This document shows, one piece after another, positions 27,986-59,291 of a stretch of DNA of 64,000 nt; positions within the stretch are counted from its first letter, which is position 1; every line of letters begins with the position of its first letter. The stretch comes from Mesobacillus persicus (GTDB taxonomy: Bacteria > Bacillota > Bacilli > Bacillales > Cytobacillaceae), in the NCBI RefSeq assembly GCF_900109925.1, contig NZ_FOBW01000003.1, positions 124,001-188,000 on the forward strand, given 5' to 3'. The position numbers were made by a program, and so were the translations under genes. Under the pieces are notes generated by a model. That model saw nothing but the letters and a program-made list of their open reading frames with translations, searched no databases and was not told the DNA's origin.

Positions 27986-28939
27986 GTGAGTTGTTTGAAA
28001 CAGAAGGAAAAGTTATTAGTTTTAATTGGGCCAACTGCTGTTGGCAAAACAAAGTTAAGTATCGACCTAGCAAAACGGTTTAACGGTGAGATCATTAGCG
28101 GGGACTCAATGCAAATCTACAAAGGGATGGACATTGGTACCGCTAAAATAACGAGTCAAGAGATGGAGGGAATCCCACATCATTTAATTGACATCAAATC
28201 CCCGGAAGAACCTTTCTCGGTGGCGGAGTTTCAAGAACTTGTCCGTGAAAAAATCAGTGAAATTGCTAGTCGAGGAAAATTACCAATGATTGTCGGTGGA
28301 ACGGGATTGTATATTCAATCGGTCATCTACGATTACCAGTTTTCAGATGCGCCATCAGACAGTGCATTCCGGACGATGCTTGAGAAGATTGCAGAAGAAC
28401 AAGGCACCGAGGAACTCTATGAAAGATTGAAAAAAGTTGATCCAGATAGTGCGGAGAGAATCCATCCAAATAATGTGCGGCGTGTCATCCGGGCACTTGA
28501 GGTTTTTCAATGTACAGGAAAGACGATGACGGAGTACCAGCAAGACCAGCAGCCGGAGCTTTTATACGATACTTGCCTCATTGGGCTAACGATGGAGCGC
28601 GAACTGCTGTATAATAGAATTAACCAACGAGTTGACATCATGAAGGAACAGGGACTTGTTGAAGAAGTTAGGTCACTGTTTGACAGTGGTCTACGAGAGT
28701 GCCAGTCGATTCAAGCCATCGGTTATAAGGAATTGTACGATTACTTCGAGGATAAGGTCAGTTTTGATACGGCGATAGAGAATTTGAAACAAAATTCACG
28801 CCGTTATGCGAAAAGGCAACTTACCTGGTTTCGAAACAAAATGGATGTAGAATGGTTCGAAATGTCAGACGGTCAAAAAAAATTCGCGGAAATTTCCAGC
28901 TACATTGAAGGAAAGCTCCAAATTAAAGCGAATACATAA
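27986..28939 (+). CDS. miaA: tRNA dimethylallyltransferase
   Basis: This enzyme of about 314-317 residues adds the isopentenyl group to A37 of tRNA, making the substrate of MiaB (17222). The P-loop is GPTAVGKT (residues 15-22), followed by the substrate motifs SGDSMQIYKGMDIGTAK, HHLIDI and GGTGLYIQS. The start is GTG 27986 or the in-frame TTG 27995; the ribosome site AAAAAGG suits the first only with tight spacing, so the true start is uncertain. hfq follows 27 bases later. Confidence 0.96.
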   Translation: MSCLKQKEKLLVLIGPTAVGKTKLSIDLAKRFNGEIISGDSMQIYKGMDIGTAKITSQEMEGIPHHLIDIKSPEEPFSVAEFQELVREKISEIASRGKLPMIVGGTGLYIQSVIYDYQFSDAPSDSAFRTMLEKIAEEQGTEELYERLKKVDPDSAERIHPNNVRRVIRALEVFQCTGKTMTEYQQDQQPELLYDTCLIGLTMERELLYNRINQRVDIMKEQGLVEEVRSLFDSGLRECQSIQAIGYKELYDYFEDKVSFDTAIENLKQNSRRYAKRQLTWFRNKMDVEWFEMSDGQKKFAEISSYIEGKLQIKANT

Positions 28940-28966
28940 TATTAGAGATAAAAAGGAGGATTTGCA

Positions 28967-29197
28967 ATGAAACAAGTTAACATTCAAGACCAGTATTTAA
29001 ACCAGCTGCGCAAGGATGGGATTAATGTCACTGTCTTCTTATTAAATGGATTCCAATTACGTGGGCAAATTAAAGGCTTTGATAACTTCACGGTCTTATT
29101 TGAAACAGAAGGAAAACAGCAGCTTGTCTACAAGCACGCGATCTCCACATTTGCACCACAAAAGAATGTTCAAATCGATCTTGATCCACAGCAATAA
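28967..29197 (+). CDS. hfq: RNA chaperone Hfq
   Basis: This 76-residue Sm-like protein forms hexamers that bind small RNAs. The Sm1 motif ([19 protein letters not shown]) and the Sm2 motif ([10 protein letters not shown]) are intact. The ribosome site AAAAAGGAGG is strong. The miaA-hfq order is conserved in Firmicutes and proteobacteria. Confidence 0.98.
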
Positions 29198-29285
29198 TAT
29201 GGAGTGGCGGTCCCTCAGAAATGAGAGATGAAGGATTGCCGGTTAAACATTTTGGGGTAGTTGGGATAGATTTATATGTATAAAG

Positions 29286-29313
29286 AAGCTCGCAGCTAAT
29301 GCGGGCTTTTTTG
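29286..29313 (+). terminator. Terminator after hfq
   Basis: AAGCTCGCA pairs with TGCGGGCTT (one G-T pair), followed by TTTTTT. Confidence 0.85.
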
Positions 29314-29527
29314 TCGGTTTAAAAGCCTGGAAAAGGCTAAGGCTCCGCCGCGAGGCATAGTGTGGCTGTCCTTTAGCTAAAATCAGTTGCTAAGTGACCA
29401 AATAGAATAAAAAATAACTATTTTTAATAAAAGGAGGTCAAAAAAAGCCCATTTTATGAATTTTTTCGCCAACCTGAGGGGTATTTTGGTCCGAAAAGTC
29501 GGTTCAGAGGCCTCATATGGGGAGTGA

Positions 29528-29632
29528 ATTCCCTATAAGCTGAATTATATTCCCTCATAGAGATGTTTTATTCCCTCACAGAGACGTTATATTCCTAGTA
29601 CGGGAATATATATTCCTACTACAAGGAATAAA
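29528..29632. repeat. Five tandem 21-bp units beginning ATTCC
   Basis: Units start at 29528, 29549, 29570, 29591 and 29612, each exactly 21 bases and each opening with ATTCC. Units 2 and 3 are nearly identical (ATTCCCTCA-AGAGA-GTT); units 4 and 5 keep ATTCCTA-TAC. Stops occur in the frames I read, so the array is not a coding repeat. Confidence 0.85.
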
Positions 29633-29847
29633 TACTGGGTGGGGTATGGTTGAGTTACTTTCTTAATTTTAATGTAACAGCATACTAAGGTGATTTCCTC
29701 CGACCAGCCTGGGAAAATTCCTTTTAATGAATTTTGCTTTAACTGAATACATATAGTTATAGGAGTATTTCCCCCGGGGAATATAGCTTTTATCACAAGT
29801 AAGAGCTTCTTCACGCATACCGTCTTTTAGAATAGAGGTGAGAAAGC

Positions 29848-30798
29848 TTGGAACAACCGTTTCGCATGAATAACAATGGACAAATTAGCATTGTACTCAA
29901 TGCGCAGAAGCGCAATGCAGCAACGAAGGAATTGCCTAAATCACCGCCAACAGAAGTGAAACCAAAGCCAACTGATCATGAAGCCTTAAAAGAAATTGAA
30001 GATGAGCTGGGGACATTGGTTGGAATGGACGAAATGAAACGCATGATAAAAGAAATCTATGCGTGGATTTATGTGAATAAAAAAAGAGAAGAAAAAGGAT
30101 TGAAGGCCGGTCGTCAAGCTTTACACATGATGTTCAAAGGAAATCCTGGTACAGGAAAGACGACCGTCGCGAGATTAATTGGAAAGCTATTTTTAAAAAT
30201 GAATGTACTATCTAAAGGGCATTTAATCGAAGCTGAAAGAGCCGATTTAGTTGGAGAATACATTGGTCATACGGCACAAAAAACACGTGATTTAGTCAAG
30301 AAAGCTCTTGGTGGAATTTTATTTATTGATGAAGCGTACTCTTTAGGACGTGGTGGAGAAAAGGATTTTGGGAAAGAAGCGATTGATACGCTTGTTAAAC
30401 ATATGGAAGACAAACAACATGAATTTATCTTGATTCTTGCGGGCTATTCACGAGAAATGGATTATTTCTTATCGTTGAATCCAGGTTTGCATTCTAGATT
30501 TCCATTAGTCGTTGATTTTCCAGATTATACAATAGATCAATTAATGGATATAGGCAGACGTATGCTAGATGAAAGAGAGTATACATTAAGTCATGAAGCG
30601 GAGCGAAAACTGAGGGAGCATCTTGCCTGGGTGAAATCAAGCCTAGGACCAACTGGATTTTCAAATGGCCGCTATATTCGTAATATCATAGAAAAATCCA
30701 TTCGTGCCCAGGCGATGAGGCTGCTGCTAGACAATCAGTTCGAGCGGCATGAACTTGTCACCCTTCGGAGCAATGATCTTATTTTAAATGAGGGTTGA
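29848..30798 (+). CDS. spoVK: Stage V sporulation protein K, AAA+ ATPase
   Basis: This 316-residue ATPase of the CbxX/CfxQ type is needed for spore maturation in B. subtilis. It has a charged N-terminal part, Walker A GNPGTGKTT (about 99-107), Walker B GGILFIDEAYSLG and the sensor/arginine region LHSRFPLVVDF. It starts with TTG behind GAGGTGAG. The position ahead of hflX-ynbB-glnRA matches B. subtilis. Its molecular target is unknown. Confidence 0.95.
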   Translation: MEQPFRMNNNGQISIVLNAQKRNAATKELPKSPPTEVKPKPTDHEALKEIEDELGTLVGMDEMKRMIKEIYAWIYVNKKREEKGLKAGRQALHMMFKGNPGTGKTTVARLIGKLFLKMNVLSKGHLIEAERADLVGEYIGHTAQKTRDLVKKALGGILFIDEAYSLGRGGEKDFGKEAIDTLVKHMEDKQHEFILILAGYSREMDYFLSLNPGLHSRFPLVVDFPDYTIDQLMDIGRRMLDEREYTLSHEAERKLREHLAWVKSSLGPTGFSNGRYIRNIIEKSIRAQAMRLLLDNQFERHELVTLRSNDLILNEG

Positions 30799-30820
30799 TT
30801 GGCATTCTGATAGCACGGAG

Positions 30821-30857
30821 CGGAGGACGAAAAGGTGTCATTTTCGTCCTCCTTTTC
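30821..30857 (+). terminator. Terminator after spoVK
   Basis: The perfect 12-bp stem GGAGGACGAAAA / TTTTCGTCCTCC is followed by TTTTCTCG. Confidence 0.92.
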
Positions 30858-31043
30858 TCGTTTTCTTGATTGGGAGTGAAAATCAACACTCATGATAAAA
30901 AAAAGTCACTTGAAAAAATCAATTATCCGATTATATATGGTAGAATTTGTATAAAATAGAGAAGTTTGTACGGATAGTTTGTTGCAAATCAACAAAGGGC
31001 CTTCGTCCAGGCAAATGAATAGCAAAATAATGGGAGTATGGTT

Positions 31044-31781
31044 ATGGAGAAAAAAATTGCAATTTTAACAGATATTCATGGCAATAACGCCGCTTTAACA
31101 GCAGTGTTAGATGAAATTGATCATGACCTGCAAGTGGAACATATTTATTGTTTAGGGGATTTAGTGGGGATTGGGCATGAAACGAATGAAGTCCTAGAGA
31201 CATTGTTTTCACGGGAGGATGTGTCATTTGTGCTAGGGAACCATGATGAGGCGATCTTAGACATACTTGCGGGGAAAGAGCCGGAGAGTAAGGGACCGGA
31301 AAGAGATCATCATAAATGGATTGCTTCTCGTTTAAATGAGCAGTTAACCGCTCCCCTTCATCAGATTCCTAAACAATTAGAAAGCAATTATAATGGGAAA
31401 AAGTTTCTGTTTACGCATTACCATTTGAACGAGGAAAATGAGTTTATGACGGTGGACTATGAACCAACAGCGAAGAAACTGGATGAACATTACAGCAAAA
31501 CAAACGCTGACGTTGTCTGTTTTGGTCACCATCACGTCGTTCACCATTTTCATTCAAGACAGCGCTTGTATTTTAACCCCGGCGCACTTGGTTGCCAATA
31601 CAAACCGATTGCCCCCTATGCGATGTTAACGGTTGGGGAATTGGGGAACATCAATATCGATTTGAAAGAAGTTCCGTACAATAACAAAGATTACATGCTA
31701 GCCTATTCAAGGCTGCCAATCCCAGCGAAAGACTTTGTTCTGAAAAACTTCTATGGAAATCAACATCTGAATTACCTCTAA
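31044..31781 (+). CDS. Calcineurin-like metallophosphoesterase
   Basis: This 245-residue phosphoesterase shows the full metal-binding series: LTDIHGNNAAL (D and H), CLGDLVGIG, LGNHDEAIL, LFTHYHLN and GHHHV. It resembles the bacterial YfcE/serine-threonine phosphatase-like group that acts on phosphodiesters or phosphoproteins; the natural substrate cannot be told. The second ATG (31044) has GGGAG at proper spacing; the first (31038) is too close. A palindromic repeat follows two bases after its stop. Confidence 0.88.
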   Translation: MEKKIAILTDIHGNNAALTAVLDEIDHDLQVEHIYCLGDLVGIGHETNEVLETLFSREDVSFVLGNHDEAILDILAGKEPESKGPERDHHKWIASRLNEQLTAPLHQIPKQLESNYNGKKFLFTHYHLNEENEFMTVDYEPTAKKLDEHYSKTNADVVCFGHHHVVHHFHSRQRLYFNPGALGCQYKPIAPYAMLTVGELGNINIDLKEVPYNNKDYMLAYSRLPIPAKDFVLKNFYGNQHLNYL

Positions 31782-31782
31782 A

Positions 31783-31811
31783 AAATGGATGGTGCCAGGC
31801 ACCATCCATTT
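31783..31811. repeat. GGTGCCAGGCACC palindromic repeat, copy 2
   Basis: AAATGGATGGTGCC and GGCACCATCCATTT form a perfect 14-bp palindrome about one central A. The module equals the core of the element at 19205-19247. It lies between convergent genes and may help end transcription from both sides. Confidence 0.82.
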
Positions 31812-31835
31812 ATTTAACATATAGTTATTTTCCTT

Positions 31836-32441
31836 TTAGTTCATTTCAACTTTGCGGATAGGGAGGCGCCAACCATGAGTATAGGAGTATACGCGGAGGC
31901 CGGTGATTACGGCAAACAATGCGTAAAGCTCGATTGGTGACTGGACCCAGTTTATTCCGATTAGTAGCCCTGCTAGGATGGCCCATATCGCGTAAACTTC
32001 GGACTTTAATACGAGCGGTTTACGGCCAGCCAATAGATCACGGATCATTCCACCACCACTCCCTGTTAGAACGGCAGCGATAATGACAGCGGCTAATGGA
32101 TGGTTCATCCCCGTTGCATAAAGTGCTCCTTGGATAGCAAACGCAGATAGACCGATGGCATCCGTGAAATTCCCCCACTTTTGCCAATGTTTTAATAGTT
32201 TGCTTGGAAAAAGCAAGATGATGGTAATCGACAAAAGGGCAATTGTGAACAGGAGGCCTTGCTCCCACAAAGCTGAAATCGGAACTCCAATTAACAGGTT
32301 CCGGATTGCTCCTCCTCCAAAGGCTGTGACAATTCCCAACATATAAACACCGAAAATATCATACTCTTCTTCCATCGCGACAATGGCGCCACTGATGGCA
32401 AAGGCAATTGTACCAATCATGCTGAGAACTTCCCAAGTCAT
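31836..32441 (-). CDS. yvgT: TRIC-type (UPF0126) cation channel family protein
   Basis: This 201-residue membrane protein has six to seven hydrophobic segments and two repeated glycine-rich motifs: GGGAIRNLLIG near residue 43 and GSGGGMIRDLLAGR near residue 127. This duplicated GGG-xxR signature is typical of the UPF0126 family, now linked to trimeric intracellular cation (TRIC) channels that pass K+ ions. In B. subtilis the family member is YvgT. The symbol is by similarity only. Confidence 0.82.
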   Translation of the reverse strand: MTWEVLSMIGTIAFAISGAIVAMEEEYDIFGVYMLGIVTAFGGGAIRNLLIGVPISALWEQGLLFTIALLSITIILLFPSKLLKHWQKWGNFTDAIGLSAFAIQGALYATGMNHPLAAVIIAAVLTGSGGGMIRDLLAGRKPLVLKSEVYAIWAILAGLLIGINWVQSPIELYALFAVITGLRVYSYTHGWRLPIRKVEMN

Positions 32442-32513
32442 CGCCGATCTCTCCCTTACAAGTCATTTCTAATAAGTTATGTTCCGAACTTTTCCTGCGT
32501 TATCTAGGTTCCC

Positions 32514-32652
32514 TCTCAAGCTTTGTTGCTTTCGAGCCAAATGGAACTTATAGCTATATATGTATCGTTGAAATATAGTTTTAGTTTTATAAAGAAAAGC
32601 CTGCAAACCTAATTTAATTGCAACAAATAGCTATTCTACGTTAAAATCTGCT
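32514..32652. repeat. Dispersed intergenic repeat, copy 2
   Basis: This copy aligns by eye with 4772-4905: TCTCAAGCTTTGTTGCTTTC, then AAATGGAACTTATAGC, then a T/A-rich part. It diverges toward the end. Confidence 0.5.
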
Positions 32653-32696
32653 GTTGGATTTTAACACCAATCTTTACGAAAACAGTCTATTTAAAA

Positions 32697-32782
32697 GAAC
32701 CATAATGATTTTACCATCTTCAACTTGTTTTTTTAACCAAAATATCTCATAAAAATCAAGAATAAGGTAAAAATTATGGTTC
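32697..32782. repeat. Long inverted repeat upstream of hflX
   Basis: GAACCATAAT-GA-TTTTACC (32697-32715) is mirrored by GGTAAAAATTATGGTTC (32766-32782) around an about 50-base centre. It lies upstream of the predicted promoter, so it is more likely a DNA element or remnant than a leader hairpin. Confidence 0.6.
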
Positions 32783-32793
32783 ATTGACCTTTT

Positions 32794-32803
32794 TTGGTAT
32801 GAT
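32794..32803 (+). promoter_or_regulatory. Extended -10 promoter of hflX
   Basis: TTGGTATGAT holds TG-N-TATGAT, an extended -10 element. It gives a leader of about 30 bases before the TTG start at 32839. No good -35 is needed for such a promoter. Confidence 0.55.
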
Positions 32804-32838
32804 GAGATTAAATACATATGAAGAAAGGTGGAATTCGC

Positions 32839-34104
32839 TTGGAACAGAAAATGGATTCCTCTGAAAAAGCCATTCTCGTTGGCTGTCAGACCCCAGCTTC
32901 TGACGACCTCCGATTTCAATATTCAATGGATGAACTGGCTTCTTTAACTGAAACAGCTCAGGGAACGGTCGTTATTTCGGTTGTGCAAAAACGGGACCGC
33001 ATTCATCCTTCAACCTATATTGGCAAAGGGAAAGTGGAAGAGCTGAAAGCTTTGGTTGCCGAATTAGAAGCGGAGTTAATCATCTTCAACGATGAGCTTT
33101 CACCAAGTCAGATACGGAATCTCTCAAGAGATCTTGAAGTTCGGATTATCGACCGAACGCAACTTATCCTTGATATCTTTGCCCGTAGAGCACGCTCCAA
33201 GGAAGGGAAGTTGCAAGTGGAACTGGCTCAGCTGCAATACTTGCTCCCTCGATTAATGGGGCAGGGAACAGCGATGTCGCGGTTAGGTGCCGGGATTGGG
33301 ACAAGAGGTCCAGGGGAAACGAAACTTGAGTCAGACCGACGCCATATTCGCCGGAGAATTGACGATATCAAGGGCCAGCTGGAAGTTATCGTTCAGCATC
33401 GTGATCGTTATCGGGAGCGCCGGAAGAAAAATAAGGCTTTCCAAATTGCACTCGTCGGTTATACGAATGCTGGGAAATCCACGCTTTTTAATCGGTTAAC
33501 TGAAGCGGACTCCTATGAAGAAAATCAACTGTTTGCAACGCTAGATCCGATGACGAGGAAAGTCATTTTGCCAAGCGGATTTACCGTCCTGATGACGGAT
33601 ACGGTTGGATTTATTCAAGACTTACCGACCACCTTGGTTGCAGCATTCCGCTCGACCCTAGAGGAAGTTCGCGAAGCCGACTTACTTTTACATGTCGTCG
33701 ATATGTCAAATGAGGATTATTTTTCTCATGAGCAAACCGTCACGAAATTGTTAGCAGACTTAGAAGTGAACCAAATTCCGCAAATAACGGTTTATAATAA
33801 AAGAGATATCAAACATCCTGATTTCGTACCAGTAGCGAAAACGGAGACCGCTTTTATCAGTGCTCATAATGATGAGGACCGGGATCAACTAAAGCTAAAA
33901 ATAGAAGAAACGGTCATCGGGATGATGGAAGCATTCCATGTACTTGTTCCTTCTGGTGAAGGGAAGCTACTTTCTCAGTTGAAAAATGAGACCATCTTAC
34001 GAGAGCTTACTTTTGATGAAGATAAGCAGGGGTATGTTTGTAAAGGTTATGCGTTAAAGGACCATCATGTAACAGGTCAACTTAATAAATATTCAGTGAG
34101 ATAG
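32839..34104 (+). CDS. hflX: Ribosome-associated GTPase HflX
   Basis: This 421-residue GTPase (YnbA in B. subtilis) splits stalled or idle ribosomes. It has the HflX N-terminal domain ([10 protein letters not shown]), the glycine-rich connector [19 protein letters not shown], and the G domain with [11 protein letters not shown] (G1), DTVGFI (G3) and NKRD (G4). The TTG at 32839 follows AAAGGTGG at good spacing; the ATG at 32818 has no ribosome site. ynbB follows after 13 bases. HflX is linked to macrolide and lincosamide stress in other Firmicutes. Confidence 0.95.
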
Positions 34105-34117
34105 GGGAAACAAAGGT

Positions 34118-35389
34118 ATGTTTACGCAATTTACATCTGGGGAAAAGCTTGAAAATCTTGTTCAACAAGTAGAAGAGCAAATTTCAGCGATACATAAAAA
34201 AATCGACCAGCGGATTGATGCCAATCAGTTCCGTGTTTTGCAGAGTTTTCAAAAGCACCGTGTCAGTGATTCTCATTTCATGCCATCTACTGGGTACGGT
34301 TATGATGACATAGGTCGCGATACATTAGAAAAAATTTACGCGGATGTGTTCGGTGGCGAAGCAGGTTTAGTTAGACCGCAAATTATCTCGGGCACGCATG
34401 CAATCTCTATTGCCCTTTTTGGCATTTTGCGACCTGGAGATGAGCTTTTATATATGACAGGGAAGCCTTACGACACCCTCGAAGAGATCGTCGGAATCCG
34501 TGGCAGTGGGAATGGGTCACTAAAAGAATACGGCATTTCCTATGATTCTGTTTCATTAACGGAAGCGGGACAAATCGATTGGCAGGCGGTTGAAAAAGCG
34601 ATTAAGCCAAACACAAAAATGATTGGCATTCAGCGGTCAAAAGGCTATGCAACCCGACCATCCTTTACAGTTGCCGAAATAGGCGAAATGGTTCGGTTTG
34701 TCAAAGAAATCAAATCGGATGTAGTCGTCTTCGTTGATAATTGTTATGGTGAGTTTGTGGAAGAGCAGGAACCATGCCATGTCGGTGCCGATTTAATGGC
34801 TGGGTCGCTTATAAAAAATCCTGGTGGCGGAATCGCGAAAACAGGTGGTTATCTTGTTGGGAAAGCGGAGTACGTCGAGTCATGTTCCTACCGGATGACT
34901 TCACCAGGAATTGGTGCGGAAGCGGGTGCGTCCCTTTATGCGCTCCAGGAAATGTACCAAGGCTTTTTCATGGCACCGCATATTGTTGCCCAAGCATTAA
35001 AGGGGGCTGTTTTTACAGCAGCGATGCTTGAAAGATGCGGCATGAATTCGCAGCCAAGTTGGGATGCAGACAGAACCGATTTAATTCAATCTATTCAGTT
35101 TGATGATCGTGAGAAAATGGTGGCTTTCTGTCAAGCGATTCAATTTGCTTCTCCAATTAATTCACATGTCACTCCGTACCCGAGCTATATGCCAGGGTAT
35201 GAAGATGACGTTATCATGGCAGCTGGAACGTTTATTCAAGGCGCAAGTATCGAATTAACGGCCGATGGCCCGACGCGCCCGCCATATGTTGCCTATGTGC
35301 AAGGTGGATTAACCTATTCCCACGTTAAAATGGCCGTATGTCTCGCCTTGGATCGGCTAGTGGAAAAAGGATTAGTGAACCTAGCATAG
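34118..35389 (+). CDS. ynbB: PLP-dependent enzyme YnbB (EF-P modification pathway)
   Basis: This 423-residue fold-type I PLP enzyme is often annotated as a cystathionine beta-lyase or methionine gamma-lyase family aminotransferase. VDNCYGEFVEEQEP holds the PLP-ring aspartate, and GSLIKNPGGGIAKTGGYLVGK holds the Schiff-base lysine. In B. subtilis, ynbB has been linked genetically, as I recall, to 5-aminopentanol modification of EF-P. That fits the presence of ymfI in the same window; the precise reaction is not certain. Confidence 0.88.
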   Translation: MFTQFTSGEKLENLVQQVEEQISAIHKKIDQRIDANQFRVLQSFQKHRVSDSHFMPSTGYGYDDIGRDTLEKIYADVFGGEAGLVRPQIISGTHAISIALFGILRPGDELLYMTGKPYDTLEEIVGIRGSGNGSLKEYGISYDSVSLTEAGQIDWQAVEKAIKPNTKMIGIQRSKGYATRPSFTVAEIGEMVRFVKEIKSDVVVFVDNCYGEFVEEQEPCHVGADLMAGSLIKNPGGGIAKTGGYLVGKAEYVESCSYRMTSPGIGAEAGASLYALQEMYQGFFMAPHIVAQALKGAVFTAAMLERCGMNSQPSWDADRTDLIQSIQFDDREKMVAFCQAIQFASPINSHVTPYPSYMPGYEDDVIMAAGTFIQGASIELTADGPTRPPYVAYVQGGLTYSHVKMAVCLALDRLVEKGLVNLA

Positions 35390-51175: not shown

Positions 51176-51490
51176 TTAAGAAACCAACTTCAACCCAACA
51201 GCTGCACTTAATACCATCGCGATGAACACAAGCCGTTTCCAATCCTTAGATTCACCATAAAACAGCATCCCGATAATGGCTCCTCCAGAAGCGCCAATTC
51301 CTGTCCAGATCGCATAGGCCGTTCCCATTGGTAAAGTATCCATTGCAATCGATAAGAAAAAGAAACTTGCACCAAAGGAAACAATTAACAGCAGAAGGGA
51401 GCGCCATTTCCTATCCTTGGTATATTGATTCATCATCGCAACCCCGGACATTTCGAATAAACCAGCAATGACTAAAGAAATCCAAGCCAT
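51176..51490 (-). CDS. gdnD: Guanidinium exporter subunit, SMR family (YkkD-like)
   Basis: This 104-residue protein has four membrane helices, with MGTAYAIWTGIGASGGAIIGM in helix 3, which matches YkkD of B. subtilis (MGTAYAVWTGIGTAGGALIGI). It pairs with the gene before it, with a one-base stop/start overlap (TAATG). The YkkCD heterodimer exports guanidinium against protons. The guanidine-I riboswitch upstream strongly supports the substrate. Confidence 0.93.
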   Translation of the reverse strand: MAWISLVIAGLFEMSGVAMMNQYTKDRKWRSLLLLIVSFGASFFFLSIAMDTLPMGTAYAIWTGIGASGGAIIGMLFYGESKDWKRLVFIAMVLSAAVGLKLVS

Positions 51491-51831
51491 TAAGACTCCA
51501 CTCCTTCCGCCGCTTTTTCATCGGTTACCATCTTCAACCCAATGACCCCTACTAGTAAAAGAACAATCAGAAGAACCTTTGGCAGGCTAAACGGTACTCC
51601 GAAAAAGAGAATGTCGGCAGCCGCCGTGCCAGCTGTTCCTAAGCCGACAAAGACCGCATAGACAGTTCCGACAGGTAGCCTACGGCCGGCGACAATGAGA
51701 CCGTAAAAACTGACAGCGATGGCAATCACTGTTCCACTCCACTCCAAAATACTATCTGCATGCTTTAATCCAATGACCCAAAATACTTCAAAGACGGCTG
51801 CAAGAAAGACCTTGATCCAATCACGATTCAT
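51490..51831 (-). CDS. gdnC: Guanidinium exporter subunit, SMR family (YkkC-like)
   Basis: This 113-residue protein has four membrane helices. The conserved Glu in [17 protein letters not shown] is the proton/substrate site of small multidrug resistance proteins, and [19 protein letters not shown] is close to YkkC. Heterodimeric pairs such as this one belong to the guanidine exporter subgroup and not to broad drug pumps. It is the first gene after the riboswitch. Confidence 0.93.
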
Positions 51832-51872: not shown

Positions 51873-51918
51873 AAAAAAGCCCGAGAGATCCTGTAGAAAC
51901 AGATCTCCCGGGCTTTTA
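51873..51918 (-). terminator. Riboswitch-controlled terminator
   Basis: Minus-strand AAAAGCCCGGGAGATC pairs with GATCTCTCGGGCTTTTTT. The 5' arm includes AAAGCCCGGGAGA, which is also part of the guanidine-I riboswitch core. Ligand binding therefore blocks formation of the terminator. Confidence 0.93.
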
Positions 51919-51997
51919 TCCCTCCGTGGCACAGACAAGCTGTGAGTTTTCTCTCGGACCAGTCCAAACTTGACGGTGTTTGCGGAACCCTAGAAAA
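51903..51997 (-). ncRNA. Guanidine-I (ykkC subtype 1) riboswitch
   Basis: On the minus strand the conserved blocks occur in order: CTAGGGTTCCGC, ACTGGTCCGAGAGA, ACGGAGGGATAAAAGCCCGGGAGA. This is the full consensus of the guanidine-I riboswitch. It precedes the ykkCD-type exporter genes, the original context of this motif. Free guanidine should raise expression of gdnC-gdnD. Confidence 0.96.
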
Positions 51998-52022
51998 CAT
52001 TCAACTTATGCAATTATCGTTC

Positions 52023-58902: not shown

Positions 58903-59023
58903 TATTAAAGGGAAAAACAAGGGAGTACGTATTCGTTTTCCGTTTGTGAGATTTGACAAAAGGAAAGCTTTACATGTACAATCTCAATATACCCCAACGG
59001 GTAATAAAAAGGAGGAAACGAGA

Positions 59024-59257
59024 ATGAATGAGATTACTGTCTATTCAACAAATACTTGACCGTACTGCACAATGATGAAAGAATTCCTTGAGGCTCAAGG
59101 ATTAGAATACAAAGAAGTAAACGTGCAGTTAGATGCTGAAGCTGCCCGAAAGCTGGTAGAAGAAACAGGACAGATGGGCGTACCGCAGACAAAGGTAAAT
59201 GGCCAATGGATTTTAGGATTTGATCCTGAAAAGTTGATGGAGTATGTGAAAAAATAG
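59024..59257 (+). CDS. Glutaredoxin-like selenoprotein (UPYC active site, in-frame TGA)
   Basis: Reading from ATG 59024 (behind AAAGGAGGAAACGAG) gives MNEITVYSTNT, then TGA at 59057-59059, then PYCTMMKEFLEAQGLEYKEV and so on to TAG at 59255-59257: 77 residues with selenocysteine at position 12. The frame is the same on both sides, and the TGA takes the place of the first Cys in the CPYC motif of the glutaredoxin family. The C-terminal half keeps the TGQMGVPQTKVNGQW and GFDPEKL segments (cis-Pro loop V-P). A SECIS-like hairpin is just downstream, and a tRNA-Sec is at 52667. Standard annotation would split it or call it a pseudogene. Confidence 0.92.
59083..59103 (+). promoter_or_regulatory. 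Predicted bacterial SECIS hairpin
   Basis: TCCTTGA (59085-59091) pairs perfectly with TCAAGGA (59095-59101), with apical loop GGC. The loop begins 33 bases after the TGA, within the 16-37 range of the general bacterial SECIS model, with G at the first loop positions as that model asks. A T-T mismatch and an A-T pair extend the stem. Confidence 0.75.
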
Positions 59258-59261
59258 TGCG

Positions 59262-59291
59262 AAAAAAAAGAGACCTAGGTCTCTTTTTTTC
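59262..59291. terminator. Bidirectional terminator between selenoprotein and efflux genes
   Basis: AAAAAGAGACC-TA-GGTCTCTTTTT is a perfect palindrome with A- and T-runs on both sides, serving both convergent genes. Confidence 0.92.

Follow-up and report, generated by a model that had tools for sequence, protein, structure and literature searches.

The frame at positions 59024–59257 of the window (the whole 64,000-nucleotide stretch of DNA analysed here) is almost certainly the gene of a true selenoprotein, a glutaredoxin-like redoxin of 77 residues in which we infer that selenocysteine (Sec) is inserted in vivo at the UGA of codon 12. An earlier note on this DNA had proposed a true selenoprotein, and that reading is supported by the conservation of the TGA at codon 12, by the conservation of a SECIS hairpin and by the Sec machinery of the genome.

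The frame opens with the ATG at 59024, has TGC as codon 15 and stops at 59255–59257, with no frame shift (Table 1). Re-reading the sequence gave the same 77-codon frame and strong ribosome site (AGGAGG) that the note had described; the sole in-frame TGA lies at 59057, at the place of the first Cys of a CxxC (CPYC) site, and the frame is unchanged across it. A GGAGG-like site is found at the matching place in many glutaredoxin homologues. Since it has a promoter-like site upstream and a strong terminator downstream, the gene looks like a single-gene unit. Two such promoter-like sites were found in the stretch, against a shuffle mean of 1.2.

Table 1. Features of the selenoprotein glutaredoxin gene and the tRNA-Sec gene in the window.
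Feature	Position	Strand	Basis
Promoter-like TTGACA-18-TACAAT, 11/12 matches	58953..58982	+	Consensus match alone
Shine-Dalgarno AGGAGG, 8 nt 5' of ATG	59010..59015	+	Sequence
Predicted selenoprotein CDS, glutaredoxin-like (77 residues; UPYC site)	59024..59257	+	Frame reading; Pfam; TGA also at codon 12 in 39 more family copies
Sec UGA codon (codon 12)	59057..59059	+	Alignment to the Cys codons in Cys homologues
U-P-Y-C active-site motif	59057..59068	+	Translation
SECIS hairpin: arms 59085–59091 and 59095–59101, loop 59092–59094 (GGC)	59085..59101	+	Conservation and model limits (PMC13188914)
Intrinsic terminator, 12-bp stem and T run	59263..59290	+	−15.6 kcal/mol, z −4.88
tRNA-Sec gene (selC), UCA anticodon	52667..52759	+	63.5 bits, Rfam cut-off 47

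A search of 193 genomes of the GTDB family (E ≤ 1e-12) gave matches in 95 genomes, 125 matches in sum. An internal TGA was flagged in 40 of these, from 40 genomes; all 40 were read, and the TGA stands at codon 12 in every one. Among the remaining 85 matches, 63 were read, with TGT or TGC at codon 12 in 61 (two of which have a later TAA) and degraded sequence in 2; the other 22 are without a TGA flag. The in-frame UGA is aligned with a conserved Cys of homologues, and the Cys that the note had expected at position 12 is present in the 61 readable copies without a TGA flag. A scan of named genomes also found TGA at codon 12 in 29 of 52 loci, including Mesobacillus, Neobacillus and Mesobacillus selenatarsenatis. 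Purifying selection acts on both sides of the TGA: for the 40 Sec genes, the ratio of mean dN to mean dS is 0.042 upstream and 0.061 downstream (567 and 671 of 780 pairs, respectively, after pairs without a usable dS were dropped).

Were this the only genome at hand, its lone in-frame TGA could pass for a nonsense mutation in a glutaredoxin gene under decay, or for a sequencing error. Neither has any realistic chance of being the explanation here, as 40 of 40 flagged family matches from 40 genomes carry the TGA at the same codon and purifying selection acts on both sides of it; it is only by the sequences of relatives that a base error in this assembly can be excluded. Both readings are ruled out by the codon conservation, and the stop codons scattered over other places that the note had named as counting against a selenoprotein do not appear among the flagged matches.

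A second glutaredoxin copy without a TGA flag is present in 21 of the 40 Sec genomes (group g15, and G068; e.g., G072 and G081), and the nine of these copies that were read all have Cys. At L205 and L207 a CPVC glutaredoxin-like gene adjoins a CPFC or CPYC one, which may be a tandem pair.

Bacterial selenoproteins are expected to come with SelA, SelB, SelC and SelD, and all four are found in this genome. The selA (576.2 bits), selB (366.9 bits) and selD (395.3 bits) genes, for which the earlier note had proposed a search, all score over the curated cut-offs, and the tRNA-Sec gene of the window (Table 1) is the only match in the genome over the Rfam cut-off. The SelD frame itself has one in-frame TGA, and two formate dehydrogenase alpha (FdhA) frames (L195 and L196, in C33 and C24 of the window's genome) carry an in-frame TGA and, downstream of it, hairpins whose loop is GGUCU. 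Together with the glutaredoxin, these frames bring the genome to at least four predicted selenoproteins. When the glutaredoxin hairpin was made into a covariance model and run against the genome, no further selenoprotein came up among the 150 of 4169 first-look candidates scored (next best E 2.6).

This GTDB family contradicts the note's remark that selenoproteins are rare in Bacillaceae: selA scores over the cut-off in 172 of its 193 genomes, so that Sec use is common. All 40 genomes with the Sec glutaredoxin have a selA match, and no TGA-flagged copy occurs in the 21 family genomes that lack selA over the cut-off. A linkage between the glutaredoxin and the tRNA-Sec gene, which are 6.3 kb apart here, was considered and rejected, and their closeness is put down to chance: ARAGORN found no tRNA-Sec near the glutaredoxin of 12 relatives in 20-kb stretches (5.7 to 14 kb a side), nor was there any within about 5 kb on either side at 20 named loci.

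The hairpin downstream of the TGA lies within the published limits for bacterial SECIS elements (PMC13188914), with a loop of 3 nt (limits 3–9 nt), a stem of 7 bp (4–16 bp), G as the first loop base (G in the first two positions), a spacing of 32 nt (16–37 nt) and an energy of −7.6 kcal/mol, only just inside the limit of −7.5 kcal/mol. Its folding energy is ordinary by itself (z −0.63), and 53 of 200 shuffles were at least as good. It occupies columns 29–45 after the TGA, and all 7 pairs are intact in 45 of 45 Sec genes as compared to 2 of 70 Cys genes.

The hairpin codons are synonymously frozen, and in Sec genes only. Where two of the 40 Sec genes have the same residue within codons 17–26, the codon is identical in a fraction of 0.9998 (5252 pairs), as against 0.486 (5067 pairs) among 41 close Cys genes. 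Elsewhere in the Sec genes this fraction is 0.554 (codons 2–11), 0.740 (13–16), 0.671 (27–38) and 0.457–0.510 (39–75). Residue 24 varies between Ala, Gly, Ser and Asp in UPYC genes and is Glu in genes of a second form, UPHC, and despite this the loop letters of the 45 Sec genes are confined to GGG (21), GGC (17), GTC (4) and GGA (3), a G[G/U]N pattern that fits the published G[G/U] rule.

In 28 Sec sequences, a subset of the 45 picked to trim near-copies, 100% of 196 cells are paired and changes on both sides are seen at two pairs, a number reached by 7 of 500 shuffles. A version slid by −2 columns also gives two such pairs, but with 30.6% of cells paired. The two-sided changes stem solely from two UPHC genes; there are none within the UPYC group, whose pairs barely vary.

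A rival reading to be weighed against this is that a near-cognate or suppressor tRNA decodes UGA-12 as Cys or Trp. Cys is tolerated at codon 12, as the Cys homologues tell us, but the genome has a complete Sec system and the hairpin is frozen in TGA genes only, whereas general suppression requires no hairpin, so that we regard such a reading as highly improbable. With Sec insertion as the preferred reading, SelB with Sec-tRNA(Sec) would bind the hairpin during translation, 32 nt past UGA-12, and selenocysteine would be put in at this codon as the attacking residue of the U-P-Y-C site. After attack of the selenolate on a substrate disulfide, the Se–S intermediate would be resolved by Cys15, and the protein could be re-reduced by thioredoxin reductase or by a low-molecular-weight thiol. 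In UxxC redoxins in general Sec attacks and the Cys of the motif (here Cys15) resolves; that the Sec form would be more reactive than the Cys form, as the note held, is likewise general chemistry.

With Cys typed for Sec, the protein scores 67.4 bits with the Pfam Glutaredoxin model (PF00462), well over the cut-off of 22.9. The closest model is that of the YruB family (TIGR02196), whose cut-off of 88.55 bits is missed by 0.65 (87.9 bits, again with Cys typed for Sec), and we therefore describe the protein as working like YruB and not as a member. Like the known selenoprotein glutaredoxins (PF00462, UxxC), it is a small protein of the glutaredoxin fold with Sec in place of the first Cys in UxxC, and its gene has a bacterial SECIS downstream; it differs from them in its Bacillaceae-type host and in a sequence that is closest to the YruB/Cp9 redoxins. 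UXX-star (NF041212) is likewise glutaredoxin-like and is named as a (seleno)protein family, and the score with that model lies under its cut-off (47.1 vs 66 bits).

Several features are shared with the Clostridium YruB/Cp9 redoxins as described in PMC3720550, namely a CP[YW]C-type site, the [IV]x[ILV][YF][ST] motif at residues 4–8, and Pro54, Gly65 and Phe66 at the same numbers. Leu44 is also common to this protein and the YruB/Cp9 group (Leu/Met44) and is absent from NrdH (PMC3720550). Unlike the Clostridium proteins, the one studied here has Sec for Cys and is encoded by a solitary gene, not one between thioredoxin reductase and peroxiredoxin. The Cp9/YruB redoxins are described as carrying electrons from an NADH-dependent thioredoxin reductase to peroxiredoxin (PMC3720550), and by resemblance to them we tentatively suggest electron transfer to peroxiredoxin as the likeliest job of the glutaredoxin. 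This role is drawn from resemblance because no partner family was found among the scanned neighbours.

There is about an even chance that the Sec protein is instead a general reductase of disulfides or low-molecular-weight thiols, or a donor to ribonucleotide reductase, and not a peroxiredoxin donor. It also matches NrdH (TIGR02194, 51.9 bits) and glutaredoxin 3 (TIGR02181, 55.3 bits), the related BC3987 of B. cereus can reduce class Ib ribonucleotide reductase (PMC3720550), and peroxiredoxin is absent among the neighbours scanned. Both scores are nevertheless far under the curated cut-offs (85.75 and 90 bits), the closest model is that of YruB, and the motif is UPYC and not the C-[IMV]-Q-C of NrdH, whose CVQC is absent.

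In the window, the glutaredoxin gene is flanked by those of a luciferase-like monooxygenase and an MFS transporter. Neither a thioredoxin reductase nor a peroxiredoxin family was found among the immediate neighbours scanned, either in the window or in 12 relatives, for which the 24 closest ORFs with a length of 100 aa or more were considered (15 scanned with Pfam, 7 homologues of scanned ones and 2 unscanned). This gives no support for a partner, and says nothing against the Sec claim. Operon partners were also looked for by comparing 15 ORFs of the window with the 12 relatives and were rejected, as only a MOSC protein is common, and in one relative (L190).

At L186, L188 and L189 (Sec) and at L193 (Cys), the neighbours of the glutaredoxin on its two sides are an AAA protein and an HflX-like GTPase. 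Genes for these two proteins (29848–30798 and 32818–34104; 78–82% identical) are found at 27986–35389 of the window without a glutaredoxin between them, the glutaredoxin being 25 kb further on. A guanidine-I riboswitch (51903–52004, minus strand, 84.6 bits) is located just upstream of two genes of the small multidrug-resistance family (51176–51831).

The wider order was scanned in 397 genomes, of which 98 had a match at E ≤ 1e-18. Outside the family a TGA was flagged in six matches; all were read, and the TGA is at codon 12 in five. The TGA-flagged G256 was rejected as a Sec copy, codon 12 being TGT in the copies read there. In two genomes (G314 and G195) the gene is of the UPYC form and has the same hairpin, while G224 and G406 have the more distant UPHC form (L203:2019–2078 and L204:1998–2057), with a hairpin in the same columns and of the same geometry, made of different base pairs. 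All five genomes with TGA at codon 12 have selA, but in G224 (about 200 contigs) no tRNA-Sec was found over the cut-off. The copy of Salirhabdus (L154 and L202, which appear to be one locus; genome G564, with selA) has the TGA and the hairpin but is probably a remnant, because stop codons stand where its start is expected. An independent gain of the UPHC form could not be established, as the data do not reject a single clade of UPYC, UPHC and four Cys genes (p-AU 0.719).

These four Cys genes group with the Sec genes. In a DNA tree of 98 rows with codons 12–27 removed, three Cys genes (L030, L042 and L044) join 39 Sec genes in one supported set of 42 (97/97, with the bootstrap not fully settled), and four state changes are needed. 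The fourth Cys gene, L201 (genome G258), came from the order scan, where nine stretches with no TGA or a doubtful one were read; as these were just nine, further such Cys genes may exist. In a protein tree without identical proteins, a branch at 98/90 sets the UPYC genes and all four Cys genes apart from the rest. One reversion shared by the four genes is not rejected (p-AU 0.147), and a Sec clade without them is borderline (p-AU 0.049, for a group picked after an earlier tree); low-scoring rows were left out of this analysis. Five rows (L059, L115, L119, L125 and L126) and seven duplicate loci were left out of the trees as well.

Both Cys exceptions with an intact hairpin, L042 and L201, fall within the Sec clade. 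L042 has TGT followed by the full 7-pair hairpin with the loop G kept, and L201 has kept the stem and lost the loop G; neither a selA match nor a tRNA-Sec over the cut-off was found in the genome of L201. In L044 and L030, 5 and 4 of the 7 pairs are kept, as in many ordinary Cys genes. A codon-match test speaks for a relic SECIS in L042 (P 0.016) and L201 (P 0.038) and not in L030 (P 0.31) or L044 (P 0.19) (four tests, uncorrected). From their sequences, L042 and L201 look like Sec-to-Cys reversions with a relic SECIS. We find it fairly likely that the glutaredoxin of Bacillales switches between Sec and Cys, by a gain of the UPYC form and then at least one, most likely two or three, Sec-to-Cys reversions, with a second Sec form in UPHC. 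The SECIS would be in graded decay, from an intact stem and loop in L042, through the intact stem without the loop G in L201 and the partly eroded L044, to L030, which can no longer be told from ordinary Cys genes.

The UxxC glutaredoxins are listed as an experimentally verified selenoprotein family (PMC9312934 and PMC13188914, whose tables cite Kim et al., 2011). The family is known already, and what is new is a member in this Bacillales family. A 2006 survey (PMC1794560) counted 3 selenoproteins in Bacillales, and the glutaredoxin entry in its Table 1 gives 3 selenoproteins, 3 Cys-to-Sec events and no Sec-to-Cys events, if the column headings are as the totals and text suggest. Bacterial changes from Sec to Cys are described as rare and mostly of FdhA and SelD in a 2026 review (PMC13188914), and remnant SECIS-like structures at Cys codons have already been reported for other cases (PMC1794560). 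The word glutaredoxin is absent from the available text of PMC5029168, and no title on this gene was found in the open-licence literature, supplements aside, on selenoproteins in Bacillaceae, Mesobacillus and Bacillales.

A Sec thiol redoxin is now placed in a Bacillales family. Its relatives that are apparently back at Cys make the glutaredoxin useful for studying the loss of Sec. The second Cys copies together with these apparent reversions offer a natural series, which may tell what a small redoxin gains from Sec and how quickly the SECIS decays after a change of the codon to Cys.
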